DNA of 64,000 nt from Denitrificimonas caeni DSM 24390. Lineage in GTDB: Bacteria > Pseudomonadota > Gammaproteobacteria > Pseudomonadales > Pseudomonadaceae. Every line of letters starts with the position of its first letter. The first letter of the stretch is position 1. The DNA lies in the NCBI RefSeq assembly GCF_000421765.1, contig NZ_ATXQ01000004.1, forward strand, positions 124,001-188,000. Direction: 5' to 3'. Of the stretch, positions 5,405 through 25,775 are shown in pieces. The notes under the pieces are model-generated. The model did no database searches and was not told the DNA's origin. It saw nothing but the letters and a program-made list of their open reading frames with translations. The position numbers and the translations under genes were made by a program.

Positions 5405-5483
5405 AGATACTGTATGAGTAGGTCATACCTGCGACAGTGGTGTTTTGTTCCAGATATATTTTTAGATGACATCGGTGCATGCC

Positions 5484-5582
5484 GTACTTCGGGGCAGATG
5501 TTAATCCGTCGATGAACCCGTCCAGGGTTCAACTCCGGCGCTCGCCATCCTTGGCTCGCTCGTCACACCCACCCCGAAGCAC
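5484..5582 (-). repeat. Type A structured repeat, copy A1
   Basis: Outer arms GTACTTCGGGG (5484-5494) and CCCCGAAGCAC (5572-5582) pair with one A/C mismatch at the third position. On the minus strand the core holds two small hairpins with GGA-containing loops, GCC-aaggat-GGC and GAACCC-tggac-GGGTTC, separated by GAGCGCCGGAG. Confidence 0.85.
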
Positions 5583-5726
5583 TCGTTGATGATGTGCAGG
5601 GTTTGCTCTGTTGCAGTACCAGTCAGATGTACAGATACATTTTTGCCACAGACCAATAAACTTCGCAAAATGATGACTTTAAAAGAGTCTTACTCAAAAC
5701 TCGCGCGCGACATCACTGATCAATGA

Positions 5727-5823
5727 GTGCCTTGCTGGTGTCGCGATCAGCGAACCATGGATGGTGAGCGCCCGAATCGGGTCAGGATGACCCGTTGAGG
5801 GAAAAGCGATACCAGCAAGGTAC
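5727..5823 (+). repeat. Type B structured repeat, copy B1
   Basis: Outer arms GTGCCTTGCTGGT (5727-5739) and ACCAGCAAGGTAC (5811-5823) pair at 12 of 13 positions. The plus-strand core contains ACC-atggat-GGT, GAGCGCCCGAA and CGGGTC-aggat-GACCCG, the same plan as type A in inverted orientation. The palindrome-like ATCACTGATCAATGAG abuts the left arm. Confidence 0.85.
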
Positions 5824-5883
5824 GGCATGCATATATCTTTCAGGATGCTTTGCATGGTTAAAAACATTCAATCTGCGCATGTC

Positions 5884-5982
5884 GTGCTTCGGGATAAGTG
5901 TTAGTCCGTCGACGAACCCGTCCCGGGCTCAACTCCGGCGCTCGCCATCCTTGGCCCGCTCGTCACACCTACCCCGAAGCAC
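5884..5982 (-). repeat. Type A structured repeat, copy A2
   Basis: Arms GTGCTTCGGG (from 5884) and CCCGAAGCAC (to 5982) are fully complementary; the mismatch present in A1 is corrected here. The core matches A1. Confidence 0.85.
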
Positions 5983-6126
5983 TCGTTGATGACATGCAGG
6001 GTTTGCTCTGTTGCAGTACCAGTCAGATGTACAGATACATCTTTGCCACAGACCAATAAACTTCGCAAAATGGTGGCTTTAAAAGAGTCTTACTCAAAAC
6101 TTGCACGCGACATCACTGATCAATGA

Positions 6127-6223
6127 GTACCTCGTTGGTGTCGCGATCAGCGAACCATGGATGGTGAGCGCCCGAATCGGGTCAGGATGATCCGTTGAGG
6201 GAAAAGCGATACCAGCAAGGTAC
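6127..6223 (+). repeat. Type B structured repeat, copy B2
   Basis: Arms GTACCTCGTTGGT (6127-6139) and ACCAGCAAGGTAC (6211-6223) pair at 11 of 13 positions plus one wobble. In the second hairpin (CGGGTC/GATCCG) a C-to-T change replaces one G-C pair by a G-T wobble relative to B1. Confidence 0.8.
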
Positions 6224-6283
6224 GGCATGCATATATCTTTCAGGATGCTTTGCATGGTTAAAAACATTCAGTCTGCGCATGTC

Positions 6284-6382
6284 GTGCTTCGGGATAAGTG
6301 TTAGTCCGTCGACGAACCCGTCCCGGGTTCAACTCCGGCGCTCGCCATCCCTGGCTCGCTCGTCACACCTACCCCGAAGCAC
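6284..6382 (-). repeat. Type A structured repeat, copy A3
   Basis: Nearly identical to A2, with the same complementary GTGCTTCGGG/CCCGAAGCAC arms. The array ends about 8 bp after this element, so the unit is truncated at the first linker. Confidence 0.85.
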
Positions 6383-6553
6383 TCGTTGATCATCTGTATT
6401 GTTAGCACTATTAGAGCTCCAGTTCGTTGGGCAATGATCTAAAGATGCAATTGAGACTAGTACAGCATGTATATATCAATAAAACCTGAGGTTTAGTTTG
6501 AGGCAATTTGGAGCTTTCTATATGTGTGCGTATCATGCTCGCCATTAACTTTT

Positions 6554-6586
6554 TGTAATGATATTCATTTGTTAGTAATGATCATT
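6554..6586 (+). promoter_or_regulatory. Fur-box-like operator before the TonB receptor
   Basis: TGTAATGATATTCATTTGT (6554-6572) matches most of the 19-bp Fur consensus GATAATGATAATCATTATC. It is followed directly by a second AT-rich palindrome, AATGATCATT (6577-6586). The pair lies 36-68 bp before the receptor start, where Fur would block transcription in iron-replete cells. Confidence 0.7.
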
Positions 6587-6621
6587 GCGTGTGTTCTTCT
6601 ATTTTTGTGCGCGGGGAAATT

Positions 6622-8643
6622 ATGTATTTTCAGTCTTCTAAACTGTGGGTTAGCCTGGTATTAGGCAATGCTCTACTGGTTGCGGCAGGTACAGCGCAGA
6701 GTAAACCTTATCAATTTGACCAAGTCACGGTGCTCGGACAAGCGCAGGAAACTGAAATATTCAAGAATCCAGCCTCTGTTAGCGTGATTGATCGCGCGAC
6801 GCTCGATAAAAGTGCCGGGCAGTCGATTGCGAGCTATTTGCGCAATATTCCAGGTGTGCAAATCTCCGAGGAAGGCGTTGAGCGCATTTCTATCCGTGGT
6901 GAGGATTCCCGCCGCGTAGCTATTTTTATTGATGGTCAGAAGCTGACCGACCACACTAAGTACGGGCAACCATTGCTGATTGATCCGGCCTCGATAGAGC
7001 GCATCGAAGTGCTGCGTGGTTCTTCTTCTGTGGTATCGGGCGGTCGTGCGATTGGTGGCGTAGTTAATATTGTAACCAAAAAAGGTGCGGACAAGCCTTT
7101 AGAAATCAGTACGCAAGCAGGTTACTTTTCAGCAACTAAAGGTTATCGCGCATCAACTGCATTATCGGGTAGTCAGGCCGGTTTTGATTACCGTTTAGGT
7201 GTGTCACGCTCGGAGTTGAATGATCGTGCGACACCTAAAGGGCGCTTAAAACCTTCAGAAACCGACGATAGCAACGTTTCTGCTCATGTTGGTTATAAAG
7301 CTGGACCACATTATTTTGCCCTAAAGGCTCAGCGTTACGATGTCGCTGCCCAAGTCTATTTAAAACAAGATAACGCTAAATTGGAGCTACCTAAACGCGA
7401 ACTGAATAAAGTTGGTTTGTTTTACCAAGGTGATCAACTGACTGAAACGCTAGATAAACTAAAAATTGACGTATACCGCCAAACGATTGATCGTGAGTTT
7501 CAAAATAGTGTGACTCAGCGAACGCCGGTAGCGACCGTTAATGTTGATGTTCTCTCTGATGACGAGCAAGTCACGCATGGTTTGAATCTGCAGGCAGAGT
7601 TGTCATTAATCGACGGGCACAGCACCGTTATTGGTGCGGAGTATGAGCAGGACGGTCTTAAAACCAAGAAAAGCAACGTAGTTGCAACATCATTTAGCAC
7701 CCCGTTTCCTCCCAGCTCAAAGAAGCAGACTCAAGGCTATGATGATGCTCAGATTGATACCACATCTATCTTTGCTCAACACAGTGTGCCATTAGCTGAG
7801 GATCTGACTGCCAGCTTTGGTGCGCGTCATTATTACGTAAAAGCTAAGCATGATAAGTCGCTTTTAAATAATGTTGCGCAACCGCGTAGCGATAACTCTG
7901 ATAATCACACTGTGGGTGCGATGAGCTTGGTGTGGCAGGCCAGCGATGCCCTAGTATTGCGCAGTAACCTCTCTCAGGGGTATGTGTACCCAACCTTGAG
8001 TCAGTTATTTTTGGCTACAACCGGTGGCGGAAACACGTTTTCCGGTAACCCTGGTTTAAAACCTGAAAAATCGACGACCTTCGAACTGGGTGCGCGTTAC
8101 GATACCAGCGAGTTGTTACTGGATGCCACGGTATTTTATAGCCGCTCAAAGGATTATATTGATTCTGTATTGACCGGTAAAAATATTGGTACCTTCCGTA
8201 ATGTTGATAAAGCAAAAAGTTATGGTATTGAACTCGCTGCTGAGAAAAGTTTTGCGGACAGTGGTTTTACTCCGTACACAACAGCAACTTTAATGCGTCG
8301 CCAAATTACCACGCCAGCCTATCGCAGCTACGACAGCGGTACGCCCAACGTGTTTGCCCGCGTTGGTTTAAAACACACCGGCTACTGGAATGTATTTGAG
8401 CGTGAGGCCGACCTGTTCGTACAAGGTGCATCCTCAGCAAAAAATGTGAGCAAACCAAACAGTGAAGCTTATGAGGCTCAAGGTTACGCTACTTTGAATC
8501 TGCGTTTAAGCATGACCACAGAGAGCAGTAATAGCTTTGGGGTTGAGCTCAATAACTTAACCAATAAAACCTATCGCCCTATTGATGAGCAGCTCTACGG
8601 CGCAAAACGTAGTGCCAATATCTTTGCAACCTATACGTTCTAA
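6622..8643 (+). CDS. TonB-dependent outer-membrane receptor, probably for heme or a siderophore
   Basis: A 673-residue outer-membrane receptor that imports an iron source using TonB energy. After a signal peptide (about residues 1-28, ending near TAQSKP) comes a plug domain: the TonB-box-like QVTVLGQ, NPASVSVIDRATL, LRNIPGVQI, ISIRGEDSRRVAIFIDG and IERIEVLRGSSSVVSGGRA. A beta-barrel follows, ending NNLTNKTYRPID and a terminal aromatic FATYTF needed for BAM insertion. The barrel segment GNPGLKPEKSTTFELGARY is common in hemin/siderophore receptors, but the ligand is not certain. ATG 6622 is chosen for its GGGGA ribosome site and proper signal peptide; an upstream GTG at 6589 would overlap the regulatory region. 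Fur control is expected. No exbBD or transport genes adjoin. Confidence 0.9.
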   Translation: MYFQSSKLWVSLVLGNALLVAAGTAQSKPYQFDQVTVLGQAQETEIFKNPASVSVIDRATLDKSAGQSIASYLRNIPGVQISEEGVERISIRGEDSRRVAIFIDGQKLTDHTKYGQPLLIDPASIERIEVLRGSSSVVSGGRAIGGVVNIVTKKGADKPLEISTQAGYFSATKGYRASTALSGSQAGFDYRLGVSRSELNDRATPKGRLKPSETDDSNVSAHVGYKAGPHYFALKAQRYDVAAQVYLKQDNAKLELPKRELNKVGLFYQGDQLTETLDKLKIDVYRQTIDREFQNSVTQRTPVATVNVDVLSDDEQVTHGLNLQAELSLIDGHSTVIGAEYEQDGLKTKKSNVVATSFSTPFPPSSKKQTQGYDDAQIDTTSIFAQHSVPLAEDLTASFGARHYYVKAKHDKSLLNNVAQPRSDNSDNHTVGAMSLVWQASDALVLRSNLSQGYVYPTLSQLFLATTGGGNTFSGNPGLKPEKSTTFELGARYDTSELLLDATVFYSRSKDYIDSVLTGKNIGTFRNVDKAKSYGIELAAEKSFADSGFTPYTTATLMRRQITTPAYRSYDSGTPNVFARVGLKHTGYWNVFEREADLFVQGASSAKNVSKPNSEAYEAQGYATLNLRLSMTTESSNSFGVELNNLTNKTYRPIDEQLYGAKRSANIFATYTF

Positions 8644-8648
8644 AATTG

Positions 8649-8690
8649 GACCGTTGCGACGCTTAATGCAGTGTCGCAACGGTCGTTTAG
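8649..8690 (+). terminator. Rho-independent terminator of the TonB receptor
   Basis: GACCGTTGCGAC (8649-8660) and its exact complement (8673-8684) form a 12-bp stem, followed by GTTTAG, 5 bp after the stop codon. The convergent LysR gene ends 15 bp further on. Confidence 0.75.
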
Positions 8691-8705
8691 ATCTGCGCTA
8701 GCAAT

Positions 8706-9605
8706 TTAACCGGTGTGCACTTGCCGGCAATGATTTAAGAACGCAGTGAGTTGTGGTGATAACGTTTTATTGCGCTGGTAAATCAAAAAGAAGCGGCGGG
8801 TCAATTTTGGCAGTGACGTGTTGACTTCCACCAGTTCACCGCGGGTCAAAAAGCGCGCCACAATTGTTCGTGATAAGCAGGCTAAGCCTAAGCCTGCAGC
8901 GGCGGCATGCTTAATCGCTTCAGAGTTACTAAACTCGGCCGCAGGTCGCAGTTGATGCAGGTGCGGTAGTAACACATGCTCAACCGCTTCTTGGGTGCCG
9001 GAGCCTGGCTCACGTAATAACCACAGCGCATTCTGTAAGTCTTTCAGGGTAACTTGCCGTTTTGCCTGTCCTTGTAAAATAGGATGATTGGCGGCGCAGA
9101 CAATCACCAGTTCATCCTCAATCCAAGGTTCAGCTAACAGATCAGGTTCATGGCAGGGGCCTTCGATGATGCCCATATCTACTTCAAAATGCGCTACTGC
9201 AGTCGCCGTCGCGGCACTGTTCGCGATCATCACCCGTGGGCAATGTTGCTTGTTGTGCAAAGCGTGACTGGCCAGTAGTTTTGGTAACAGATAAATACCA
9301 ATCGTAGTGCTGGCGCCAATGTATAAACCTGCGCCAGTTGTCTCGCTAGAATTGAACTGTTGTTCGATGGTATTGGCGGCATCGAGCATTTGCCGTGCTT
9401 GCGGTAGCAGTAAGCGGCCATTGTCGTTCAGTACGAGGCGCTTGCCGACTCGATCGAATAGATCGACAGTCAAGATGCTTTCCAGTTCTTTTAATGCAGC
9501 GCTGGTAGCGGACTGTGAGAGGGCGATGTTTTGCGCTGCCGCTGCAGTGCTACCTGATAAAGCAATCGCAGTAAAAATATGCAATTGGCGCAAAGTGATT
9601 TGCAT
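8706..9605 (-). CDS. LysR-family regulator, YeiE-like
   Basis: A 299-residue LysR-type regulator with the standard plan: winged helix-turn-helix at residues 1-65 (LRQLHIFTAIALSGSTAAAA, then LSQSATSAALKELES, then LFDRVGKRLVL) and a periplasmic-binding-like effector domain from about residue 90. It diverges from a YeiH-family gene, the same arrangement as E. coli yeiE-yeiH, where YeiE senses sulfite. By analogy it probably activates the neighbouring exporter gene. The effector is inferred from synteny, not from binding residues. Confidence 0.85.
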   Translation of the reverse strand: MQITLRQLHIFTAIALSGSTAAAAQNIALSQSATSAALKELESILTVDLFDRVGKRLVLNDNGRLLLPQARQMLDAANTIEQQFNSSETTGAGLYIGASTTIGIYLLPKLLASHALHNKQHCPRVMIANSAATATAVAHFEVDMGIIEGPCHEPDLLAEPWIEDELVIVCAANHPILQGQAKRQVTLKDLQNALWLLREPGSGTQEAVEHVLLPHLHQLRPAAEFSNSEAIKHAAAAGLGLACLSRTIVARFLTRGELVEVNTSLPKLTRRFFLIYQRNKTLSPQLTAFLNHCRQVHTG

Positions 9606-9652
9606 GCTGAGGCCTCTGGTAAATGCTGTCGATCAACCTGTTATATCGTTTG

Positions 9653-9668
9653 ATTATACCTATATAAT
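9653..9668. promoter_or_regulatory. Candidate LysR operator in the divergent intergenic region
   Basis: ATTATA-N4-TATAAT is a dyad in the 148-bp gap between the divergent regulator and the YeiH gene. It fits the T-N11-A style of LysR boxes, and its right half could double as a -10 element for yeiH. Chance is possible in AT-rich DNA. Confidence 0.35.
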
Positions 9669-9753
9669 TCGTTTTATTGTTTGAATGCTGGCCCATACAC
9701 TGTTTGACATCGGGTGCTGATACAGGCCTTCAGAAACAGTGAGAGCGTTTAAA

Positions 9754-10866
9754 ATGTTAGCGTTACCAAGAAAAAATACAGATATGTGTACTGGCCTGCC
9801 CAAATGGCTGCAGCTGCGTACAGAGTTGCTGCCCGGTTTATTGTTGTGTGCGGCTTTGTCTGCTGGCGCATTAATGCTGGATCGTGTGCCGTGGTTACAA
9901 ACGCATGGACTGTCTGCATTAACGCTGGCCATCATGTTCGGTTTTGTTGTGGGTAATACAGTGTTTCCACGCTTGGTTGATCGCTGTGCGCCCGGGGTGC
10001 TTTACGCGAAGCAATACATGCTGCGTTTAGGCATCATCCTCTATGGTTTTCGCTTAACGTTTCAAGACATGGGCTATGTTGGGCTAGCTGGTGTACTGAT
10101 TGATGCGCTTGTGTTGACCACAACTTTTGCTTTGGCGGTGGTGCTGGGTATACGCGTATTCAAGCTGGAGCGTGGTACCGCAATGTTGATTGGTATTGGC
10201 AGCTCTATTTGTGGTGCGGCGGCAATTATGGCAGCGGAGCCGGTTCTCAAAGCGCGTGCTGAGCAGGTTACCGTAGCAGTCGCAACTGTCGTGGTGTTTG
10301 GTACCTTAGCGATTTTTGTCTATCCGTTGCTGCACAGCTTAAATATGCATTGGCAGTTATTGAATACCACTGACTTTGCTTACGGTATGTTTGTCGGTTC
10401 TACTATTCATGAGGTTGCGCAAGTAGTGGCCGCAGGCGCAGCAATCAGCCCAACCGCTGCCGACACTGCCGTCATTGCTAAGATGGTGAGGGTGATGATG
10501 CTGGCGCCATTCTTGATTGGTTTGGCGGTGTATTTGGCCCGAGCCAAGACCGAGCAAGTAACTGAGAAGGCTCCCGCTAAAAAAGGACTGCTCGCTAGGG
10601 TTAGCGTACCTTGGTTTGCTTTTATCTTTGTCGCGGTGGCCGGCTTTAACTCTTTGCAGTTGTTGCCTGAGTTGGTCATCGAGCATATTGCACAAGTGGA
10701 TACAGCTTTATTAGCCATGGCTATGGCGGGTCTTGGTTTGACCACTGATCTCAAAGCGATTCGCCGTGCCGGCTTGAAGCCGCTAATGTTGGCCAGCCTG
10801 CTGTTTGTTTGGTTAGTGGTGGGAGGCGCTGGGTTGAACTATGCGATCACGGCAGCATTTTCCTAA
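9754..10866 (+). CDS. YeiH family inner-membrane protein (putative sulfate/sulfite exporter)
   Basis: A polytopic membrane protein of 370 residues with about ten hydrophobic segments and the family motifs AIMFGFVVGNTVFP, LRLGIILYGFRLT, GIGSSICGAAAIMA and GSTIHEVAQVVAAG. The family (UPF0324/YeiH, Pfam Cons_hypoth698) is annotated as a putative sulfate exporter; transport substrates are poorly proven, but the partner regulator YeiE responds to sulfite. ATG 9754 is chosen because GAGAG lies 8 bp upstream; an in-frame GTG at 9739 lacks a ribosome site. A strong bidirectional terminator follows. Confidence 0.85.
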   Translation: MLALPRKNTDMCTGLPKWLQLRTELLPGLLLCAALSAGALMLDRVPWLQTHGLSALTLAIMFGFVVGNTVFPRLVDRCAPGVLYAKQYMLRLGIILYGFRLTFQDMGYVGLAGVLIDALVLTTTFALAVVLGIRVFKLERGTAMLIGIGSSICGAAAIMAAEPVLKARAEQVTVAVATVVVFGTLAIFVYPLLHSLNMHWQLLNTTDFAYGMFVGSTIHEVAQVVAAGAAISPTAADTAVIAKMVRVMMLAPFLIGLAVYLARAKTEQVTEKAPAKKGLLARVSVPWFAFIFVAVAGFNSLQLLPELVIEHIAQVDTALLAMAMAGLGLTTDLKAIRRAGLKPLMLASLLFVWLVVGGAGLNYAITAAFS

Positions 10867-10895
10867 TCGATATAAAATATTCTTATCGCTTAAAC

Positions 10896-10947
10896 AAAAC
10901 CGCGCAGTGAGCATTCATTTTAAATGGCTGCTCACTGCGCGGTTTTT
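10896..10947. terminator. Strong bidirectional terminator, 18-bp perfect stem
   Basis: AAAACCGCGCAGTGAGCA (10896-10913) is the exact complement of 10929-10946 and ends in TTTTT on the plus strand and in TTTT on the minus strand. It separates the convergent yeiH-like gene and the small secreted-protein gene. Confidence 0.85.
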
Positions 10948-10991
10948 AGATTTTAAAGGAGTAGCGGTGTGTCTGGATTTTTGCGTAACTG

Positions 10992-11384
10992 CTATAGCTC
11001 ATCGCACACATGGTTTTCTTTGAGGGAGTCGATATCGAACTCTTCTTGCAATGCTTGTGCACCAGGGAAAGCATTGCCCATTTGTGCTGTGCATTTTTTC
11101 ATGGCTTGGAAGTTAGGATTGCTTTGCATGTCTTTAGCGTAGGTCATCGCGCTATCTTGTGCTTGCTGGCGCTGGTCAGACTCACATAGCTGCTTAATGT
11201 GCTTGGCCATTTTTTCGCCATTGGCGGCCATGTCTTCTAAGTAGCGCATATCAACAGTTTCGCTGATACAGCGCTGCATTTGCATCATGTTTTGCATCAT
11301 CTGTTCGTGCTCGTTAGCGTGAGCCATAGAAGTCGCAGTGGTTATGATGCAGAGTGTTGCTGCTAAGGCTGAGGGCTTAATCAT
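10992..11384 (-). CDS. Small exported protein of unknown function
   Basis: A 130-residue protein with a clear N-terminal signal peptide (MIKPSALAATLCIITTATSMAHA, cleavage likely after AHA, near residue 23). The mature part is about 107 residues, rich in Met, Gln, Glu and Lys, predicted mostly helical, with four cysteines (CISETV, LCESDQ, KKCTAQ and the near-terminal HVCDEL) that could form two disulfides in the periplasm. AGAGGA precedes the ATG. I recognise no domain. It stands alone between two terminator-bounded units, in the place where ruvC would normally precede ruvA. Confidence 0.75.
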   Translation of the reverse strand: MIKPSALAATLCIITTATSMAHANEHEQMMQNMMQMQRCISETVDMRYLEDMAANGEKMAKHIKQLCESDQRQQAQDSAMTYAKDMQSNPNFQAMKKCTAQMGNAFPGAQALQEEFDIDSLKENHVCDEL

Positions 11385-11618
11385 GCGCCTTATCCTCTGT
11401 AGGTTGTGTTGATGGCTCAGATAATAGGCGATCTGAGCACGCTTGCCTAATCAATCAGGGGGAGTCGAGTCATGCTTCAATCTATAGATTGAAAGGGCTG
11501 GGTGCGCATTGAGAGCATTGCAGGCTGATCTGGTATTGTTTTGTGGTAACTGTATATAATGCCAGCTGTTGTGTTTGGGTTGCTGCTCGGTAATCCAACT
11601 CTTAAAGAAGGAAAGGTT

Positions 11619-12233
11619 GTGATTGGATATCTACGAGGCAATTTACTAGAGAAGCAACCGCCGCATGTCCTGCTGGATGTCAATGGCGTTGGTTATGAAT
11701 TGGAAGTGCCAATGACCACTTTATTCCAGTTGCCGATGGTGGGTGAGCCTTTGGTGCTGCATGTGCATTTGGTGGTGCGCGAAGATGCGCAGCTTTTATA
11801 CGGCTTTTACACTAAACGCGACCGTACTTTATTTCGTGAACTGATCCGCTTAAATGGTGTGGGGCCCAAGCTGGCGCTGGCCTTGATGTCGGGGATGAGC
11901 GTCGATGAAATGATTCAATGCGTGAATGCCGAAGACACCAGTCGCTTAATGAAAGTCCCAGGCGTCGGTAAAAAAACTGCTGAACGCTTACTGGTTGAAC
12001 TTAAAGATCGTTTTAAAAATTGGGACAGCACGCCGTTGGCCGGGCAAAACAGCATGGAACCTGCTGGGCTTTCGGCAGTCACAGACGCGAACAGTCCAGA
12101 AAAAGATGCAGTGAGTGCGCTGATTAGTTTAGGCTTTAAACCCGCCGAAGCGAGTCGCGCGGTTAGCGCTGTAGCGCAAGATGGTTTGAGCAGCGAAGAC
12201 TTGATTCGTCGCGCATTGAAAGGCATGGCGTAA
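11619..12233 (+). CDS. ruvA: Holliday junction branch-migration protein RuvA
   Basis: RuvA binds four-way DNA junctions and loads the RuvB motor during recombinational repair. The 204-residue product begins [12 protein letters not shown], uses a GTG start with AAGGAAAGG just upstream, and shows the OB fold, the helix-hairpin-helix region ([16 protein letters not shown] and [17 protein letters not shown]) and a C-terminal UBA-like RuvB-binding domain ([18 protein letters not shown]). A longer in-frame start at 11559 is rejected because conserved sequence begins at 11619. ruvB follows; ruvC is not upstream, which is unusual. A TATAAT at 11555-11560 may be the -10 box. Confidence 0.95.
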
Positions 12234-12265
12234 TTGAGCCACATTATTTGGGATAACTGCAGTTT

Positions 12266-13315
12266 ATGATTGAAGCTGATCGCTTGATTGCCGCCGCTCC
12301 GCGTGAGCGTGAAGAGCACGTTGATCGCGCCATACGCCCGCTGTGCTTAGCTGATTATATTGGTCAGCCCAGTGTGCGTGAGCAAATGGCATTGTTTATG
12401 CAGGCTGCTAAAAACCGTGATGAAGCGCTTGATCATACGCTGATCTTTGGTCCGCCAGGTTTAGGCAAAACCACGTTAGCCAATATCATTGCCCAAGAAA
12501 TGAATGTCTCGTTAAAAAGCACTTCAGGTCCGGTGCTTGAGCGTCCAGGTGATTTGGCAGCACTGTTAACTAACCTTGAAGAAGGTGACGTGCTGTTTAT
12601 TGATGAAATTCACCGCTTGCCGCCAATTGTGGAAGAGGTTTTGTATCCAGCGATGGAAGACTTCCAATTGGATATCATGATCGGTGAGGGGCCGGCCGCG
12701 CGCTCAATCAAACTCGACTTGCCACAATTTACTTTAGTCGGTGCCACCACGCGCGCTGGCATGCTGACCAATCCGTTGCGCGACCGCTTTGGTATTGTGC
12801 AGCGCTTAGAGTTTTATAACGTCACAGACTTGACCACTATTGTGGTGCGCTCGGCAGGCATTTTAAACATGCCAATTGAGTATGAAGGCGCCTATGAAAT
12901 TGCGCGGCGCGCGCGCGGCACTCCACGGATTGCCAACCGTTTATTGCGCCGTGTGCGCGATTTTGCTCAAGTGCGCGGCACTGGACAGATCAGTCAAGTC
13001 ATCGCCAATCAAGCACTGAACTTGCTTGATGTGGATGAACATGGTTTTGATCACCAGGACCGTCGTCTGTTGTTGGCAATGATTGAAAAGTTTGATGGCG
13101 GTCCAGTGGGTGTGGATAGCTTGGCTGCCGCGATCAGTGAAGAGCGGCATACCATTGAAGATGTGCTGGAACCCTATTTGATTCAGCAGGGCTTTATCAT
13201 GCGCACCCCACGTGGGCGCGTCGTCACCCGTCATGCTTATCTGCATTTTGGCTTACATTTACCTGAGCGTTTGCTCGATGGTGCGGTGTTAGAGAAATAC
13301 CTTGATGATGAGTGA
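12266..13315 (+). CDS. ruvB: Holliday junction helicase motor RuvB
   Basis: RuvB is the AAA+ ATPase that drives branch migration with RuvA. The 349 residues include Walker [10 protein letters not shown] (62-70), Walker [10 protein letters not shown] (from 110), sensor I GATTRAG (159-165) and arginine finger Arg174 in NPLRDRFG, followed by the winged-helix DNA-binding domain ([18 protein letters not shown]). It lies 32 bp after ruvA, clearly the same transcript. Confidence 0.97.
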
Positions 13316-13364
13316 AAATATACCTGCGTTCCCCATTGGCAATTAGACGAGGTGGCATTACAGT

Positions 13365-13808: not shown

Positions 13809-13810
13809 GC

Positions 13811-14506: not shown

Positions 14507-14514
14507 GGTGCCCC

Positions 14515-17320: not shown

Positions 17321-17374
17321 TGATGGGTTATCTGTTAACTAAACTAAATATGTTGTTTTTTTGGAGCTTGTAAA

Positions 17375-17881
17375 ATGGAAATGCTTAAATTCGGTAAATT
17401 TGCCGCGTTATCATTGGCTTTGGCTGTAGCTGTTGGTTGTTCTTCAAAAGGCGGCGACGCAAGCGGTGAAGGTGCAATTGACCCGAATGCCGGTTACGGC
17501 GCAAACACAGGTGCCATCGATGGCAGCATGAACGGTGGTAGCGAAGAAGCAGCATTGCGCGCTATTACTACGTTCTACTTTGAATTCGACAGCTCAGACC
17601 TAAAACCAGAAGCCATGCGCGCACTTGATGTACACGCACGTGACTTACAAGGTAACGGCGCACGCGTTGTATTGGAAGGTCACGCTGATGAGCGCGGTAC
17701 TCGCGAATACAACATGGCGCTGGGCGAGCGTCGTGCTCAAGCAGTACAGCGTTACTTAGTTCTGCAAGGTGTTTCACCTGCACAACTTGAGCCAGTATCT
17801 TATGGTGAAGAGCGTCCAAACGTAGTGGGTCATGACGACAGCGCATGGTCACAAAACCGTCGCGTTGAACTGCGTAAGTAA
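17375..17881 (+). CDS. pal: Peptidoglycan-associated lipoprotein Pal (OprL)
   Basis: An outer-membrane lipoprotein that binds peptidoglycan and TolB. The N-terminus [20 protein letters not shown] leads to the lipobox cysteine at residue 22 (VGCSS). A Gly/Ser-rich linker precedes the OmpA-like domain ([43 protein letters not shown]). GGAG lies 9 bp before the start; a poly-T stretch sits in the 54-bp gap after tolB. Length 168 equals the Pseudomonas orthologue. Confidence 0.97.
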
Positions 17882-17893
17882 TAGGTAATACAA

Positions 17894-18679: not shown

Positions 18680-18791
18680 TACGCTGCTTTCATCAGCACG
18701 TTCGCGCTCAGCGCGGGTCCGTGCTGGGCAGTGCCTCATTCAGCAATGGAGGCGGACGGCCTGTTTTGCTGTCGCGCCCGGCGCATATACA

Positions 18792-19439
18792 ATGCACAAC
18801 ACCCTACGCATCACCGAGATTTTTTACTCGTTACAGGGCGAAACTCGCACTGTTGGTCTTCCGACTGTTTTTATCCGTCTCACCGGTTGCCCGCTCCGCT
18901 GCCAATACTGCGACAGCGCCTATGCGTTTAGCGGCGGGCAGTTGTTCTCTATCGAAGATATTTTGATTCAAGTCGCGGGTTACCGGCCGCGTTATGTCTG
19001 CGTGACAGGTGGCGAACCTTTAGCACAACCGCATGCTTTAACGCTATTTAAAGCGCTGTGTGACGCAGGCTATCGAGTGTCCACCGAAACCAGTGGTGCG
19101 CTCGATATTAGCGGCATTGATACGCGGGTCAGTATTGTGCTCGACCTTAAAACTCCTGGCTCATTAGAATCGCAACGCAATCGCTATGAAAATATCGATT
19201 TGCTGAAAGGCGATGACCAGGTCAAATTCGTGCTGTGCAATCGCGCGGATTACGACTGGGCGGTCACTAAGCTTCTGCAATACAAGCTGGATACGCGCGT
19301 ATCTGAAGTGCTTTTTTCGCCCAGTCAGGGCCAGTTGCTTCCGCGCGATCTGGCTGATTGGATCGTTGCCGATAACCTGCCGGTGCGTCTGCAGCTACAG
19401 TTGCATAAGCTGTTGTGGGATGACCAGCCTGGTTACTAA
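18792..19439 (+). CDS. queE: 7-carboxy-7-deazaguanine synthase QueE
   Basis: A radical SAM enzyme that converts 6-carboxytetrahydropterin to 7-carboxy-7-deazaguanine on the path to queuosine. The 215-residue protein has the cluster ligands Cys33, Cys37 and Cys40 in GCPLRCQYC and the GGEPL motif near residue 74. The start MHNTLRITEIFYSLQGE matches the family even though no strong ribosome site is seen. It lies 112 bp after cpoB and is followed by queC, as in other pseudomonads. Confidence 0.93.
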   Translation: MHNTLRITEIFYSLQGETRTVGLPTVFIRLTGCPLRCQYCDSAYAFSGGQLFSIEDILIQVAGYRPRYVCVTGGEPLAQPHALTLFKALCDAGYRVSTETSGALDISGIDTRVSIVLDLKTPGSLESQRNRYENIDLLKGDDQVKFVLCNRADYDWAVTKLLQYKLDTRVSEVLFSPSQGQLLPRDLADWIVADNLPVRLQLQLHKLLWDDQPGY

Positions 19440-19512
19440 TGCCGAGCTAACTGTGTTATTGCGCATCTGCAATCTGCAGCATGTTGCTTAGTAAACAAGC
19501 TTTGAGAAAACA

Positions 19513-20193
19513 ATGATGACCAATAAACGCGCTGTTATTTTATTATCAGGCGGCTTAGATTCTGCCACTGTCCTTGCCTCTGCGCGAGCGCAAGGCTACG
19601 ACTGCTACACCATGAGCTTTGATTATGGTCAGCGCCATCGCAGCGAGTTGGACGCCTCTCGGCGGATTTCAGAGGCTTTAGGCGCTACTGAACACAAAGT
19701 GATTGGGATTAATTTAGATGGCATAGGTGGTTCTGCGTTAACCGATAGCAGTCTTGCTGTGCCAGAGCGGTTAAGTCAGGGGGAGATTCCGGTCACCTAC
19801 GTGCCAGCGCGTAATACCGTGTTTTTGTCTCTGGCTTTGGGTTGGGCAGAAGTGCTAAAGGCGTATGATATTTTCATTGGTGTGAACGATGTTGATTACT
19901 CTGGCTACCCGGATTGCCGTATTGAATTCATCCAAGCGTTTGAGCGTGTAGCCAATTTAGCCACACGTGAAGGTGTGGAGGGACGAGCGTTTCGTATTCA
20001 GGCACCTCTGCAAAGTATGAGTAAGGCTGCTATTATTCAGCTTGGTACGCAGTTAGGGGTAGACTATGCGCTCACCGTATCCTGTTATCAGGCTGATCTT
20101 GATGGTCGGGCTTGTGGGGTCTGTGAAAGCTGTCAATTGCGTAAACAAGGTTTTATTAACGCAGGAATAAACGATTCAACGCGATATTTTTGA
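19513..20193 (+). CDS. queC: 7-cyano-7-deazaguanine synthase QueC
   Basis: QueC uses ATP and ammonia to turn carboxy-deazaguanine into preQ0. The 226 residues include the PP-loop SGGLDS (12-17) and a zinc site made by Cys191, Cys201, Cys204 and Cys207 (ending CGVCESC). The start may be the first or second of two tandem ATGs. Together with queE here and queA/tgt near 49 kb it accounts for four queuosine steps; queD and queF are not in the window. Confidence 0.95.
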
Positions 20194-20252
20194 CAAATAT
20201 AGAATTTATGCTTGAACTGAGCTGAGAAGTCCGTATTATGCGCATCCCTTCC

Positions 20253-20327
20253 GGGTCGTTAGCTCAGTGGTAGAGCAGTTGGCTTTTAACCAATTGGTCG
20301 TAGGTTCGAATCCCACACGACCCACCA
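20253..20327 (+). tRNA. tRNA-Lys (anticodon UUU), CCA encoded
   Basis: Acceptor GGGTCGT pairs with ACGACCC. The D arm is TAGCTCAGTGGTAGAGCA, the anticodon loop CTTTTAA gives UUU, the T arm contains GGTTCGAATCC, and the discriminator A is followed by an encoded CCA. In Pseudomonas this tRNA-Lys lies between queC and nadA and is a known integration hotspot for genomic islands; here nadA begins only 106 bp downstream and no second copy of the tRNA 3-prime end is seen, so the site looks unoccupied. Confidence 0.97.
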
Positions 20328-20432
20328 ATTTCTATAGCATCGTTTTGTCGGTATTGCGTTGTATCTCTTTTAGAGCACTCAGCATTACACTTGTTAACAT
20401 TGCGCCTATGCGCGCTGTGAGGACTGACATCA

Positions 20433-21491
20433 ATGACGCAGATTTCTGAACGTATTTTGGTTCAAGCACACTTGGCGGCTAAGCAGATTGAAGAGCTTAC
20501 GCCTGAGCAAGAGGCGCATTACTGTGAGCGCATCATTGCCGAACTGAAAGCACAAAATGCGGTGTTAGTCGCGCATTACTATTGCGCCCCCATCATTCAA
20601 GAATTAGCTGAGAAAAGTGGCGGCTGTGTGGCTGACTCGCTAGAAATGGCACGCTTTGGTAGTCAGCACAGTGCGCAAACGCTGGTGGTCGCTGGTGTGC
20701 GTTTTATGGGTGAGACAGCAAAAATTCTCAACCCAGAAAAGCGTATCTTGATGCCAACTCTAGAAGCCACATGCTCTTTAGATTTGGGTTGCCCGGTTAA
20801 AGAGTTTTCTGAGTTTTGTGATCAGCATCCTGAGCGTACTGTGGTGGTGTATGCCAATACCTCAGCGGCAGTCAAAGCCCGTGCTGATTGGGTGGTGACC
20901 TCTAGTTGTGCCTTGGAGATTGTTGAAAGCCTGATGGATAATGGTGAAACCATTTTGTGGGCACCGGATCAGCATTTGGGCCGCTATATTCAGCGTGAAA
21001 CTGGCGCAGATATGTTGTTGTGGGACGGTGCGTGCATTGTTCACGAAGAGTTTAAAGCCAAGCAGTTGGCTGATATGAAGGTTCTTTATCCTGACGCCGC
21101 TGTATTGGCTCACCCTGAGTCGCCGACTGCGGTGCTGGAGCTGGCCGATGTGATTGGCTCAACTACGCAGTTGATTAAAGCGACGCAGGAACTACCGAAT
21201 CAGCAGTTTATTGTGGCGACTGATCGTGGCATTTTTTATAAAATGCAGCAGCTCAGCCCGAATAAGAGCTTTATTGAAGCACCAACAGCGGGTGAGGGTG
21301 CATCTTGCCGCAGTTGCGCTAACTGTCCGTGGATGGCGATGAATACGCTGGAAGCAATGTTGCTTGGTTTGCAGCATGGCAGTAATGAAATCATTGTTGA
21401 TCCAGCGATTATTCCACGCGCCGTGCGTCCTTTGCAGCGCATGCTGGATTTCACCCGCGATGCACAAATTAAGCTCAAAGGTAACGCTTAA
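20433..21491 (+). CDS. nadA: Quinolinate synthase NadA
   Basis: NadA condenses iminoaspartate with dihydroxyacetone phosphate to quinolinate, using a [4Fe-4S] cluster, in de novo NAD synthesis. The 352-residue product shows [14 protein letters not shown], the Cys in [24 protein letters not shown], and a C-terminal [23 protein letters not shown] lies about 10 bp before the ATG. Its cluster depends on the isc operon, present further right. A terminator follows at 21513. Confidence 0.95.
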
Positions 21492-21512
21492 CTAACATCT
21501 TTGTGACTTTAG

Positions 21513-21560
21513 AAAGCCCTAACGAGAGCTGCATTGGCAGTACTTCGTTGGGGCTTTTTG
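21513..21560 (+). terminator. Rho-independent terminator of nadA
   Basis: AAAGCCCTAACGA (21513-21525) pairs with TCGTTGGGGCTTT (21545-21557), with one T-G wobble, and continues as a T-run. Confidence 0.75.
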
Positions 21561-21723
21561 CTTTTATCGGTTATTCAGTGCTCATTGATCAGTGATCTGT
21601 TATTCGAGAATTGAACCCTGTATAAGCTGGCCATGCCAGCGATTGCGGCTTAATCCGATGCACGACACGCGCAGACTGAACGTTTTTAACCATATAAAAC
21701 ATTCATTGGAATAGGCGCATGCC

Positions 21724-21821
21724 GCACCTTGCTGGTATTGCTCTTCCCTCAACGGGTCGTCCTGACCCGATTCGGGCGCTACGTCATCCCTGACTCGCTA
21801 GCCGCGATACCAGCAAGGTAC
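21724..21821 (-). repeat. Type B structured repeat, copy B3
   Basis: Arms ACCTTGCTGGTAT (21726-21738) and ATACCAGCAAGGT (21807-21819) pair perfectly over 13 bp. On the minus strand the first hairpin is GTC-agggat-GAC, where B1 has ACC/GGT, a compensated change; the second is CGGGTC-aggac-GACCCG. TCATTGATCAATGA, a perfect 14-bp palindrome, abuts the right arm. Confidence 0.85.
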
Positions 21822-21966
21822 TCATTGATCAATGATGTTGTTTTCGCACCTTTAGTAGGACTCTTTTAAAGCCATCATTCTGTGAAGTTTTATTGGCCTG
21901 CGGCAAAGATGTATCTGTACACCTGACTGGTAGTCCAGCACGGCAAACCCTGCAAATGCTCAACGA

Positions 21967-22065
21967 GTGCTTCGGGGTGGATGTGCTGAGCGAGCCAAGG
22001 ATGGCGAGCGCCGGAGTTGAACCCTGGATGGGTTCATCGACGGATTAACACTTACCCCGAAGTAC
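21967..22065 (+). repeat. Type A structured repeat, copy A4
   Basis: Arms GTGCTTCGGGGT (21967-21978) and ACCCCGAAGTAC (22054-22065) pair with one G-T wobble. The core has GCC-aaggat-GGC, GAGCGCCGGAG and GAACCC-tggat-GGGTTC. Confidence 0.85.
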
Positions 22066-22119
22066 GACATTCGCTGACTGAGCATTTTAGCCATGCAAAG
22101 TATTTAGATGTTTATGTAA

Positions 22120-22223
22120 GTGCACGCATCGTGCCAGTGGAGATATTCTCTAGACGAGTCATCCTGACCCGATTCGGGCGCTGCGTCATCCATGACTCGC
22201 TAGCCGCGACACCAGCAAGGTAC
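22120..22223 (-). repeat. Type B structured repeat, copy B4 (left arm degraded)
   Basis: The right arm CACCAGCAAGGTAC is intact, but the left arm region (about 22120-22140) no longer pairs. The core is preserved, with a first hairpin GTC-atggat-GAC on the minus strand. It is probably a decaying copy. Confidence 0.7.
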
Positions 22224-22410
22224 TCATTGAGCAGTGATATTGTTTGCAGGTTTGGTGCGTGACACTTTTAAAAAAACTATTTGGCAAGCTTCTGCCGTAT
22301 AGGCGAACTAAATGCATGGTGCTTGTTCCAAAGTGTAATAAACTCCAACACAATAGCTGCCATTAATGTGGCGATGAAACTGCTGTCTAATAATTAGGAT
22401 GAGGTGTGAT

Positions 22411-23229
22411 TTGGCGACTTTACATAAATATGCTGCGTTGGCTGGTGCGCTGTTGCTGGTAGGCTGCCAAGCCGTCAATACCACTGGCTCAAGTGCCGTG
22501 GGCGTTGATCGCAAACAGTATATGTTCAGCATGCTCAGCACGAACGAAATCAATCAAAGCTATGCTCAGGCTTACCAAGAGACGCTGCAGCAAGCCCAAG
22601 CGAAGGGCAAGCTGGATACGCGCAGTAATAATGCCAAGCGTTTACAGGTCATTGGCAAGCGCTTGATTGCGCAAGCCGGATACTTCCGTCCAGATGCAGC
22701 ACAGTGGGACTGGCAGGTAAGTTTGATTGAAAGTCCTGATTTAAATGCCAATTGCGGCCCTGGCGGTAAAATAATTTTTTATAGTGGCATTATCACTAAG
22801 CTCAATCTGACTGATGATGAAATCGCTGCAATTATGGGGCATGAAATTGCTCATGCATTGCGCGAGCACAGCCGTGAAGCGATGTCGAAGGCCTATGGCA
22901 TTGAAATGGCTAAATTAGGCTTGGGCGCAGTGCTTGGCGTCAGTCAAGATACGATGCAGATTGCTGATACTGCCGTGCAGTATGGTATGACTTTACCTAA
23001 TAGTCGTGGTGCAGAAACAGAAGCTGACTTGTTAGGTATTGAGCTGGCGGCACGTGCCGGTTACAACCCGAATGCTGCGGTCAGTCTATGGCAAAAAATG
23101 GAGCAGGTCAGTCAAGGTGCGCCAGCTGAGTTTACCAGTACACACCCTTCTTCATCGACCCGGATTCAAAACCTACAAGCCAATATGCCGAAAGTTATGC
23201 CGCTCTATGAGCAGGCACGTAAACGTTAA
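22411..23229 (+). CDS. M48 family zinc metalloprotease lipoprotein (LoiP/BepA-like)
   Basis: A periplasmic, outer-membrane-anchored zinc protease that probably takes part in envelope quality control. The signal sequence ends in the lipobox LLVGC; the zinc motif HEIAHAL and the downstream third ligand region (ETEADLLGIELAARAGY) are intact, as is the NANCGPGGKIIFYSGI strand. TTG at 22411 is preferred because GAGGTG lies 4-6 nt upstream; an in-frame ATG at 22399 has no ribosome site. A homologue follows nadA in P. aeruginosa too, so the neighbourhood is ancestral, with locus II repeats between. Confidence 0.88.
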   Translation: MATLHKYAALAGALLLVGCQAVNTTGSSAVGVDRKQYMFSMLSTNEINQSYAQAYQETLQQAQAKGKLDTRSNNAKRLQVIGKRLIAQAGYFRPDAAQWDWQVSLIESPDLNANCGPGGKIIFYSGIITKLNLTDDEIAAIMGHEIAHALREHSREAMSKAYGIEMAKLGLGAVLGVSQDTMQIADTAVQYGMTLPNSRGAETEADLLGIELAARAGYNPNAAVSLWQKMEQVSQGAPAEFTSTHPSSSTRIQNLQANMPKVMPLYEQARKR

Positions 23230-23298
23230 GTGCTTGGCTGTACGGGCTGAACTGCCCGCTTCAGCAAGCTGACAGCCGACGCTTAATCTTGCAGCTGA

Positions 23299-23322
23299 AA
23301 AACGCCCTTATAAGGGCGTTTT
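23299..23322. terminator. Bidirectional terminator between the M48 gene and rlmG
   Basis: AAAACGCCCTTATAAGGGCGTTTT is a perfect 24-bp palindrome between two convergent genes, one base from the rlmG stop. Confidence 0.8.
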
Positions 23323-23323
23323 C

Positions 23324-24448
23324 CTATTTGGTTGCTTTGAAAATCACAAATTTAGCGTTCGCGGCAATCTGCTGTACGTCGCGGAACATGCGTTTTAGCG
23401 TGACGTGATAGCCCAGGTGGCGATTACCGACGACCCATAATTGACCGTCTTTTTTTAAGGCGCGGTGGCTTTGTTGAAACATGCGTCTGGCTAAAAAGTC
23501 GCCAACCACTTGCTGCTGGTGAAAAGGCGGGTTACAGAGAACAATATCAAGTGTTTCTGCTTGTTCTGCGCCAAGACCGTCACCAGCATAAACAGTGATC
23601 GGACGCTCTGCTAAAGCCCGTTGCCAGTTTTCTTGCGCAGATTGCACGGCCATATAAGACTCATCAATCATACGCAGCTGTGCTTGCGGGTTATTTAGCG
23701 CACAGACAATACCTAGCACACCGTTACCGCAACCAAGGTCTGCGACCTGTGCATTGCCTAAGTTAGCAGGTAAGTGCGGCAGAAAAAATCGCGTGCCAAT
23801 ATCCAAGGCTTCACGGCAAAACACTCCTGCATGGTTGCGCAAGATAAGCTGAGGTTTTTCCAGTTGATATTCACTTGGATAAGGTGAGCTGGCTTGGAGT
23901 TTTTCAGCTGGCGTGACAAAAAGTAAGCGTGCTTTTTTCTCGGCAAGACTGGCTTGCACTGGACCAATGTAGCGTTCAAGTAAATCGCCTGCCGAACGCG
24001 GCAGGTGTTTAATCATGCCAGCGGCGATAATAATAGTGTCTGGGGTGATCTGAGTTTGTAAGCGAATCAACTGTTCTTCGAGTAGGGCAAGAGTTTTCGG
24101 CACACGAATCAGTACGCAAGCATAGGGGCCGTTAAAGGCTTGATCGGCTTGGATGATCTCGACGCTGTCTTGGCTAAGTTGATTATTATCAAGGTTATTG
24201 CGCAGGGCTTGATGGGCTAAAAATGAATCGCCACTGCTATGCACCTGCATTTGGCTAGCTAAACTAGCGGCAAGGGCACCGAAGTTATCGTTAAGGATTA
24301 GCGTGCGCGCATTGCTCGCTAAGCTGCAGCTGCTAAGGTGTTTAAGCAGATACTCGTCAGCCGCATCGAAAGCTTGTAGTGGAGTGTTGGGCAGCTCTGG
24401 ATAGCGTAATAAATCCAGCTGTGCAAAAGACGTATTAAATATAGGCAT
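23324..24448 (-). CDS. rlmG: 23S rRNA (guanine-1835-N2)-methyltransferase RlmG
   Basis: A two-domain class I SAM methyltransferase of the RsmC/RlmG type, predicted to methylate G1835 of 23S rRNA. The N-terminal half is a degenerate methyltransferase fold; the C-terminal half carries the SAM motif VADLGCGNGVLG and the catalytic NPPFHQQQ. The start at MPIFNTSFAQLDLLRYPE gives 374 residues, the Pseudomonas length; the upstream TTG extension is rejected. RlmG versus RsmC rests on overall resemblance. Confidence 0.85.
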   Translation of the reverse strand: MPIFNTSFAQLDLLRYPELPNTPLQAFDAADEYLLKHLSSCSLASNARTLILNDNFGALAASLASQMQVHSSGDSFLAHQALRNNLDNNQLSQDSVEIIQADQAFNGPYACVLIRVPKTLALLEEQLIRLQTQITPDTIIIAAGMIKHLPRSAGDLLERYIGPVQASLAEKKARLLFVTPAEKLQASSPYPSEYQLEKPQLILRNHAGVFCREALDIGTRFFLPHLPANLGNAQVADLGCGNGVLGIVCALNNPQAQLRMIDESYMAVQSAQENWQRALAERPITVYAGDGLGAEQAETLDIVLCNPPFHQQQVVGDFLARRMFQQSHRALKKDGQLWVVGNRHLGYHVTLKRMFRDVQQIAANAKFVIFKATK

Positions 24449-24519
24449 AAGGATCGCAGGTATTTGTTTGGCCAAAAATGGCGTATGAATAGAGTGACTG
24501 TTAATTAATGAGGTGCAGT

Positions 24520-25296
24520 ATGAACGCGGCGCAAGAAAAGTTCACCCGACAAACGATTACTCACTTACATACGTGGACGCCAAGTCTGTTTAGTTTTCGT
24601 TGTACGCGTGATGTGGGGTTTCGTTTTACGGCAGGACAGTTTGCCCGTTTAGGCGTGCGCAAGGCCAATGGCTCGATTGTTTGGCGTGGCTATTCGATGG
24701 TGTCGAGTCCGTTTGATGAGTTTTTAGAGTTTTTCTCGATTGTCGTGCCCGGCGGTGAGTTTACCAGTGAACTAAGTCAGCTGGCGGTCGGCGATGAGAT
24801 TTTGATTGAGAAACAAGCGCATGGTTTTTTGACCTTAGATCGCTTTGTTGATGGTGAAAATCTTTGGTTGTTATCGACAGGTACCGGGGTTGCGCCGTTT
24901 TTGTCGATGCTACAGGATTTTGAAATTTGGCAGCGTTTTGAGCGAATTGTTTTGGTGTACAGCGTGCGCTCTGCGGCTGAATTAGCTTACAAAGATTTGC
25001 TCGATGAAATTTTGACGCGAGAGTATGTTGCCGAGTATGCACATAAGTTTACCTTTGTACCGGTAGTCACCCGCGAAGACATTGCTGGCTGCTTAGGTGC
25101 GCGCATTACTGATTTGTTGATATCTGGTGAGCTTGAAAAGCATGTTGGTTTGCCGATGACTGCAGAAAGTTCTCGGGTGCTGCTCTGTGGTAACCCAGAG
25201 ATGGTTGAGGATTGTCGGATGTTGCTACAAGGCCGCGACATGCAATTGTCGCTGACCCGTCGACCGGGAGCAGTGGCTGTTGAGAATTACTGGTAG
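24520..25296 (+). CDS. fpr: Ferredoxin-NADP+ reductase
   Basis: A 258-residue FAD flavoprotein that moves electrons between NADPH and ferredoxin/flavodoxin. The FAD motif is RGYSMVSSP (about residues 50-58), the NADP region LLSTGTGVAPFLSML, and the end VENYW is typical of bacterial subclass I reductases. ATG 24520 is preceded by GAGGTG; an earlier ATG at 24508 lies inside that ribosome site. It diverges from rlmG and converges on mscL, with locus III repeats between. It may serve the ferredoxins encoded at 45.0 and 62.5 kb. Confidence 0.9.
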   Translation: MNAAQEKFTRQTITHLHTWTPSLFSFRCTRDVGFRFTAGQFARLGVRKANGSIVWRGYSMVSSPFDEFLEFFSIVVPGGEFTSELSQLAVGDEILIEKQAHGFLTLDRFVDGENLWLLSTGTGVAPFLSMLQDFEIWQRFERIVLVYSVRSAAELAYKDLLDEILTREYVAEYAHKFTFVPVVTREDIAGCLGARITDLLISGELEKHVGLPMTAESSRVLLCGNPEMVEDCRMLLQGRDMQLSLTRRPGAVAVENYW

Positions 25297-25380
25297 TTTG
25301 CTTTGCGAGATATTGTGCTTGATGTTCATGTGTGTAACTGGAGTAACTATTAAGAGCTTCGGGCAAGATATGTGCGAGCC

Positions 25381-25479
25381 GTGCCGCGCTAATGTCACTT
25401 TTCTCTCAATGAGTCATCCTGACTCAATTCGAGCGCTACGCCATCCATGGCTACGCTTGCCGTGAAACTAGCGCGGCAC
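25381..25479 (-). repeat. Type B structured repeat with alternative arms, copy B5
   Basis: Arms GTGCCGCGCTA (25381-25391) and TAGCGCGGCAC (25469-25479) pair perfectly. On the minus strand the core gives GCC-atggat-GGC and TGAGTC-aggat-GACTCA, compensated versions of the hairpins in B1-B4. Confidence 0.85.
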
Positions 25480-25612
25480 TCATGGATCAATGATGCTGTT
25501 TGCGTATTTTTTGTAAGTATCAATGAATCTATAGTAAGCGTTCGTCATTGGCGTTTATGGCTAGTCGCTCTACTTATTTTGCAGTAGCGCGAACAACGCA
25601 AATGATTAACGA

Positions 25613-25713
25613 GTACTGCGCAGTAGGTGTGATGAGCGAAGCCAGGGATGGCGCAGCGCCGGAGTTGAACCCAGGATGGGTTCATCGACGGATAAACACT
25701 TATTGCGCAGTAC
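25613..25713 (+). repeat. Type A structured repeat with alternative arms, copy A5
   Basis: Arms GTACTGCGCAGTA (25613-25625) and TATTGCGCAGTAC (25701-25713) pair over 13 bp with one G-T wobble. The core (GCC-agggat-GGC, then CAGCGCCGGAG, then GAACCC-aggat-GGGTTC) is close to that of A4 although the arms are different. Confidence 0.85.
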
Positions 25714-25775
25714 GATATGCATCGCACCAAACTGAAAATACTAGCGTTTAAGTGACGGTGTGAAGTTGAGAGGAT

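Follow-up and report, generated by a model that had tools for sequence, protein, structure and literature searches.

The window analysed here is a stretch of 64,000 nucleotides of Denitrificimonas caeni DSM 24390 (contig NZ_ATXQ01000004.1, positions 124,001 to 188,000). It carries ten copies of a structured repeat of about 99 nt, distributed over three gaps between open reading frames (ORFs). The first gap (5337-6588) is flanked by genes for an iron-containing alcohol dehydrogenase and a TonB-dependent receptor, the second (21492-22398) by nadA and an M48 peptidase gene, and the third (25297-25830) by an FAD/NAD oxidoreductase gene and mscL. The original prediction, made from the letters of the sequence, had listed these ten copies as a family whose arms and stems vary while staying complementary. 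All ten were found at the listed positions and occupy both strands, the strand being assigned by reading the GGAT/GGAC loops (Table 1).

The repeats fold into a three-way junction selected on one strand

Nine of the ten copies form, on the GGA-bearing strand, a three-way junction of common plan with z scores of -5.63 to -9.18, and for each of them 0 of 200 shuffles folded as well. The tenth copy (22120-22223, the element itself at 22126-22223) has no junction fold (z -0.27, equalled by 72 of 200 shuffles), because one of its outer P1 arms has been replaced. It also gave the lowest scores among the window copies (62.3 and 66.8 bits) with two search models, R1, built from the nine junction-forming copies, and R2, built from 150 rows, all from the genus. 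The plan consists of an outer stem of 18 bp (P1) and two hairpins. P2 is composed of a GC/GC step, a tandem G·A and a 4-bp stem enclosing NGGA (CCA-N-GGA-TGG); P3 is composed of CCS/SGG, a tandem G·A, one extra pair and a stem of 6-7 bp with the loop NGGAY. The element ends are mostly GTRC/GYAC. The plan first proposed therefore holds for nine of the ten copies, with an 18-bp stem replacing its outer arm of 10-13 bp, and the matching of each outer arm by its own complement holds for the same nine.

Covariation was measured in three alignments. A3 contained the nine junction-forming copies aligned without structure guidance, the structure being taken from the folds of its members. Standard pairs filled 98.7% of its 297 cells and both sides had changed in 21 of 33 pairs; for four of five measures no shuffle out of 500 did as well, and the remaining one, the number of further pair types, was ordinary at 34 versus 34.9 (reached by 374 of 500). 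When A3 was slid by 1-3 columns, 30-44% of cells were paired. A4 (125 distinct rows, from the best 150 of 166 matches) and A5 (132 distinct rows, from the best 150 of 155, with one of its 34 pairs added by hand) have some copies in common, were fitted to the structure and hold the best-scoring copies without the most decayed, all of which favours the fold. Paired cells amounted to 97.9% of 4123 in A4 and 98.1% of 4485 in A5, where both sides had changed in 28 of 34 pairs, and in both alignments all five measures were reached by 0 of 500 shuffles. G·U and U·G outnumbered A·C and C·A by 253 to 28 in A4 and by 290 to 23 (12.6:1) in A5, an excess that a structure of both strands would not give and which thus points to a single folded strand, the GGA strand. 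The tandem G·A was also conserved: in P2, G·A was read in 128 and A·G in 126 of 132 copies, and in P3, G·A in 131 of 132, the fourth pair being A·G in 98 and C·A in 34.

The repeats might also be neutral and decaying, their complementarity a remnant of recent copying. Many copies inside one genome are indeed nearly identical, and copy 22126-22223 and several half elements (in loci L140 and L141, by eye) are decayed. Yet 49 distinct 5′ arms of P1 occur among the 132 distinct copies and 97.1% of P1 cells are paired; the G·U to A·C ratio and the near-invariant loop GGA described below argue in the same direction, as counted in best-scoring copies only. Random decay of the arms without complementarity, which the original prediction had set against its own proposal, is contradicted by the covariation controls, and we consider neutral repeats a very improbable explanation. 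The compensated changes strongly support selection acting on the three-way-junction fold of one strand.

The two loops resemble CsrA/RsmA sites

GGA was present in the P2 loop of 131 and in the P3 loop of 130 of the 132 distinct copies. In P2 the base preceding GGA is free (A 45, G 46, T 38, C 2), with an A ahead of this base in 131 of 132 copies and a U behind GGA in 129; A-N-GGAT, an ANGGAU hexaloop on a stem, was read in 126 of 132 rows. The P3 loop has five bases (NGGAN) in 68 rows. In the other 64, seven bases lie between the modelled pairs, and an outer C-G mostly closes, leaving five. The high-affinity site of RsmE is described as an ANGGAX hexaloop on a stem, five-base loops without the N being weaker and some purine pentaloops binding well (PMC4005645). 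The full ANGGAX context for Csr/Rsm-type sites is found in P2 only; as far as sequence can tell, P2 fits the high-affinity class and P3 the weaker, N-lacking class. We infer that the elements may bind CsrA/RsmA.

A CsrA gene was found in 12 of 12 genus genomes. Outside the genus it was found in 7 of the 8 genomes with the core pattern defined below (the exception being Elioraea) versus 3 of 14 control genomes, a comparison that leaves out the rate in Lachnospiraceae at large. The family resembles the decoy RNAs RsmX/Y/Z and CsrB/C in its hairpin-loop GGA and in its two loop classes. It differs from them in being dispersed in at least 116 copies with two GGA loops each, and in having no evident terminator or promoter in the one array scanned.

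Copy number and distribution

With 150 of 291 candidates scored, model R1 detected at least 116 copies in the genome from which the window comes. Matches occurred in each of the 12 genus genomes (this one and 11 more) and in 1 of 25 other genomes searched. In G005, a genus member assembled as one contig, 110 of the 111 candidates scored were matches. R2 was positive in 19 of 148 Pseudomonadaceae genomes: all 12 genus genomes and, with weak scores, 7 from a single other genus.

A core pattern of 21 fixed bases was found in 45 stretches across the genome-contig collection. Among these, 25 belong to metagenome-assembled genome records named Gammaproteobacteria or Pseudomonadaceae bacterium, 12 to Lachnospiraceae, 7 to Silanimonas lenta and 1 to Elioraea. 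In S. lenta, where 150 of 3049 candidates were scored, R2 matched at 10 places with a best E of 1.9e-15. Most of these matches have a block of about 125-230 bases in common with the reference copy, and the six copies inspected looked intergenic by eye. For Lachnospiraceae, R2 listed 10 of the 12 core-pattern loci weakly (best per locus E 0.0016-0.031), and three folds tried were mixed (z -0.93, -2.53 and -4.39). Their tie to the family, resting on the shared core, appears weak. The gathering score of TwoAYGGAY (RF01731), an Rfam motif treated below, was reached by none of 10 Lachnospiraceae loci and none of 5 of the 7 Silanimonas loci submitted. In five Lachnospiraceae loci (L203, L213, L223, L227, L243) a 24-base core recurs with a TATAAT-like motif and a further GGA hairpin next to it, ahead of start codons by eye. 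The single Elioraea match (L241, R2 E 0.56) was taken as chance. A 509-base query gave no blastn match in the plasmid and phage collections, and a plasmid or phage origin was rejected on that basis.

A diverged relative of TwoAYGGAY

TwoAYGGAY was first listed in PMC2864571 (Rfam RF01731, clan CL00106); CsrA binding was proposed for it, and tandem GAs in one stem reported, in PMC4333381. Rfam gave no match to the repeat copies across the window; RF01731 gave none in 6 genus loci and matched 0 of 10 genus genomes under stricter filters (25 candidates scored each), and two copies from the other genus matched by R2 (L070, L082) exceed its gathering score. Among 99 Pseudomonadaceae genomes, RF01731 matched 53 at E≤0.001, 35 of them over the cut-off, and gave at least 20 matches in 10 (25 candidates scored each). 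Conversely, R2 recovered 14 of the 16 RF01731 loci submitted to it (of 20 selected) at E≤1e-3, L172 and L174 failing. Since R2 was built from genus copies only, this statistical link indicates that the two are homologous and that the family is a strongly diverged, expanded relative of TwoAYGGAY. Because the genus copies lie outside Rfam's model, we call them TwoAYGGAY-like and not members. Comparison with Rfam, as first suggested, thus left the window copies unmatched and placed the family through the reverse search.

Both have two GGA-loop hairpins in a junction, an outer closing stem and tandem G·A pairs, a high copy number in some genomes, and inverted 5′-5′ pairs at some loci. Of the AYGGAY features, two GGA hairpins inside an outer stem are present, but only the P2 loop has six bases and its N is free, not only Y. 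The window copies further differ in scoring below the gathering score, in the five-base P3 loop and in the 18-bp P1 with mostly GTRC/GYAC ends, and the genus elements in having an array grammar of two types and conserved flanks of their own. No description of TwoAYGGAY as a mobile repeat was found in the open-access literature searched. The intergenic repeat R178 of P. fluorescens is described as 101 bp long with internal 11-bp inverted repeats (PMC2718517); compared by description and not by sequence, it is similar in size, has internal inverted repeats and comes from a related group, and our guess is that R178 corresponds to TwoAYGGAY repeats.

Arrays of alternating types

Two types of element were distinguished. 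Type a mostly has CCG/CGG in P3 and type b mostly has CCC/GGG there, and the two lie on opposite strands of arrays. In the pooled sets, inverted neighbours within 400 bp were heterotypic in 118 cases and scored homotypic in 3, direct neighbours were homotypic in 33 of 33, and 2 of 48 arrays came out as mixed. These counts omit every pair in which an element was left untyped, and one direct pair counted as different in the first set was of this kind. The three homotypic cases had been mis-scored by the pattern and were heterotypic on reading the sequences, so that no true exception to the pair rule is known. Gaps between 3′ ends measured 60-63 bp in 25 of 39 cases, and the 55 gaps between 5′ ends were spread over 100-277 bp, including about 45 partly conserved nt upstream of each element. 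The arrays were picked for high scores and many were copied within one genome, so they are not independent.

In the window, direct repeats occur at a spacing of 400 in the array 5484-6382, which looks like a tandem amplification of an a/b unit of about 400 bp, and the copies at 25381-25479 and 25613-25713 form an isolated 5′-5′ pair 133 bp apart. In locus L141 of G005, tandem half elements (one P1 arm plus flank) lie beside intact copies, by eye, a run that suggests rapid turnover.

Convergent ORFs, in tail-tail arrangement, flanked 19 of 37 arrays versus 34 of 283 other junctions (p 1.4e-7), and 27 of 50 arrays in a larger set. Only 30 of 155 elements lay mostly inside a kept ORF (≥120 aa), although such ORFs hold 78% of bases. 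The first element facing a gene was antisense to the 3′ end of that gene in 55 of 73 cases, its own 3′ end pointing outward, and a sense element acting as a CsrA site in the 3′ untranslated region (UTR) of the neighbour was not favoured. The outward 3′ ends agree with the 5′-5′ pair as the unit.

Such pairs could instead be divergent small RNA (sRNA) genes, with two promoters in the 5′-5′ spacer and types a and b transcribed outward as CsrA-titrating sRNAs. The facing 5′ ends, the conserved upstream stretch and the outward 3′ ends would be expected of them. That stretch is, however, unlike a sigma-70 promoter by eye. Promoter-like sites in the one array scanned numbered 3 against an expected 1.5, and none of its elements was followed by a terminator-like site. 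It would also be unusual for one genome to have over 100 sRNA genes. This explanation is in our view improbable, and a promoter or terminator function of the elements was rejected from the same scan.

Outside the genus, several G104 loci and a single G019 locus had inverted 5′-5′ pairs of RF01731 elements. In the long 5′-5′ spacers of the G104 pairs, another palindromic repeat, TGTGGGAGG(G/A)GGCTTGCTCCCGAT...ATCGGGAGCAAGCCCCCTCCCACA, was observed by eye (twice in L194, at 1410-1510 and 1688-1782, and in L193 at 1356-1448).

Table 1. Repeat elements and spacers of the window, with strand and single-element data.
Feature	Position	Strand	Remarks
Type-a element, P1 GTGCTTCGGGGTGGGTGT	5484..5582	-	fold z -7.12; matched by models R1/R2
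5′-5′ spacer, 144 bp, a to b	5583..5726		contains the conserved ~45-nt 5′ flanks of both
Type-b element, P1 GTGCCTTGCTGGTGTCGC	5727..5823	+	fold z -8.24
3′-3′ spacer, 60 bp	5824..5883		gap measurement
Type-a element	5884..5982	-	fold z -6.53
Type-b element	6127..6223	+	fold z -5.63
Type-a element	6284..6382	-	fold z -7.59
Type-b element	21724..21821	-	fold z -6.26
Type-a element	21967..22065	+	fold z -6.85; 145 bp 5′-5′ from b copy, 60 bp 3′-3′ to next
Type-b element, 3′ arm replaced	22126..22223	-	fold z -0.27; typed by eye, untyped by script
Type-b element, other arms GTGCCGCGCTAGTTTCAC	25381..25479	-	fold z -6.38; typed by eye, untyped by script
Type-a element, other arms GTACTGCGCAGTAGGTGT	25613..25713	+	fold z -9.18

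Two further features of the window lie outside the family. The CrcZ sRNA, the Crc/Hfq decoy of pseudomonads, lies at 3448-3812 on the minus strand (RF01675, 171.5 bits). At 10896-10946 two 25-bp arms, 92% complementary, form an inverted repeat around a 1-nt gap.

Mobility and the comparison with REP elements

The family recalls REP, BIME and REPIN repeats in being extragenic, in the alternation of two inverted unit types, in having two linker classes, in its compensated stems and in its tail-tail preference; published descriptions of REPs and BIMEs include this alternation as well as compensated palindromes (PMC2817692). It differs from REPs in being a 99-nt three-way junction with mostly GTRC/GYAC ends and not a GTAG-type palindrome of 20-40 bp.

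A Y1 transposase match was obtained in 6 of 12 genus genomes and no Y1/RAYT match in G005, though it is copy-rich. The window's genome (G000) has one Y1 gene, a RAYT-like ORF of 207 aa (C6:87065-87313; L088:1501-1749), with GCGGGC-rich repeats on both sides that are distinct by eye from the junction elements. Because G005 is copy-rich without Y1 and the G000 gene is flanked by other repeats, RAYT/IS200 enzymes were rejected as the general mover. Other candidates were also set aside. An autonomous long element was rejected since the 2.6 kb enclosed by one set of inverted copies (G000:C1:370959-373520) carry a TonB-receptor-like ORF (by eye). In two longer gaps of G005 (L093:8210-8760 and L096:6441-7005), ParE-type toxin ORFs lie between two same-orientation copies, each with a small neighbour ORF, that of L093 being weakly ribbon-helix-helix-like; these toxin genes were not taken as parent genes. 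A replication-strand bias was not retained (29 leading versus 18 lagging, p 0.14). No clean empty site was found among 10 mscL loci (the gap being outside the stretch in L142 and L148).

The repeats could nevertheless be mobile DNA in the style of BIMEs or REPINs, with an enzyme reading the single-stranded junction, the GGA loops serving as its recognition bases and RNA playing no part. The alternation of inverted types, the two linker classes, the tandem arrays, the extragenic tail-tail placement, the strand-specific fold, the inverted pairs in G104 and G019 and the published likeness to REPs and BIMEs would all suit such repeats. They would not be REPs, given the 99-nt junction without a short palindrome; G005 gave no Y1/RAYT match, the sole Y1 gene of G000 sits beside other repeats, and the leading/lagging difference is not significant. 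Moreover, the GGA loops follow the rules of CsrA sites down to the free N, and a DNA enzyme would not have to obey such rules. We therefore see a DNA-only origin as a serious but rather unlikely explanation. The original prediction had left the choice between REP/MITE-type DNA and a structured RNA open; both keep evidence and are not exclusive, and what fell away is the link to a RAYT-type REP palindrome and its transposase.

A proposed explanation

With moderate confidence, we favour strand-specific three-way-junction elements of CsrA/RsmA-binding type that spread as inverted heterotypic pairs. A CsrA/RsmA dimer could hold the RNA copy of an element by spanning its P2 and P3 loops. The spreading unit would be the inverted pair, with type a on one strand and type b on the other, which would grow into arrays by tandem duplication, and heterotypic partners may avoid long palindromes. 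Transcription, CsrA binding, a physiological effect and enzyme-driven movement are steps that we infer.

Several observations weigh against this explanation. An enzyme that recognises single-stranded DNA could also account for the conservation seen. RsmY-like matches under the gathering score were obtained in 12 of 12 genus genomes, and also in two unrelated control genomes; the repeats accordingly need not be the sole CsrA decoy. In 5300-6600 at E≤5 and in 21700-22240 at E≤10, RF01731 gave no listed match. The gene-facing elements are mostly antisense, and the scanned array showed no excess of promoter-like sites. A second match above the gathering score was present in 1 of 13 RF01731 loci (about 3 kb), the paired layout being less general outside the genus, and neither a mobilising or parent gene nor a target duplication was found in the scans made.

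More broadly, and only tentatively, TwoAYGGAY-class motifs might be widespread mobile repeats that move as inverted pairs of non-identical CsrA/RsmA-binding junctions, the regulator site being their selfish or domesticated core and the pair grammar blocking pairing between the partners.

The family links a catalogued, unexplained Rfam motif to an abundant dispersed repeat, and on either the RNA or the DNA reading the Rfam models tried miss it in the genus. A reading of the fold as single-stranded DNA would suggest a new mobilising enzyme. If the loops bind CsrA/RsmA, the function of TwoAYGGAY RNA becomes a testable question, and each genome could have at least 100 chromosomal sites that titrate or localise a global regulator.

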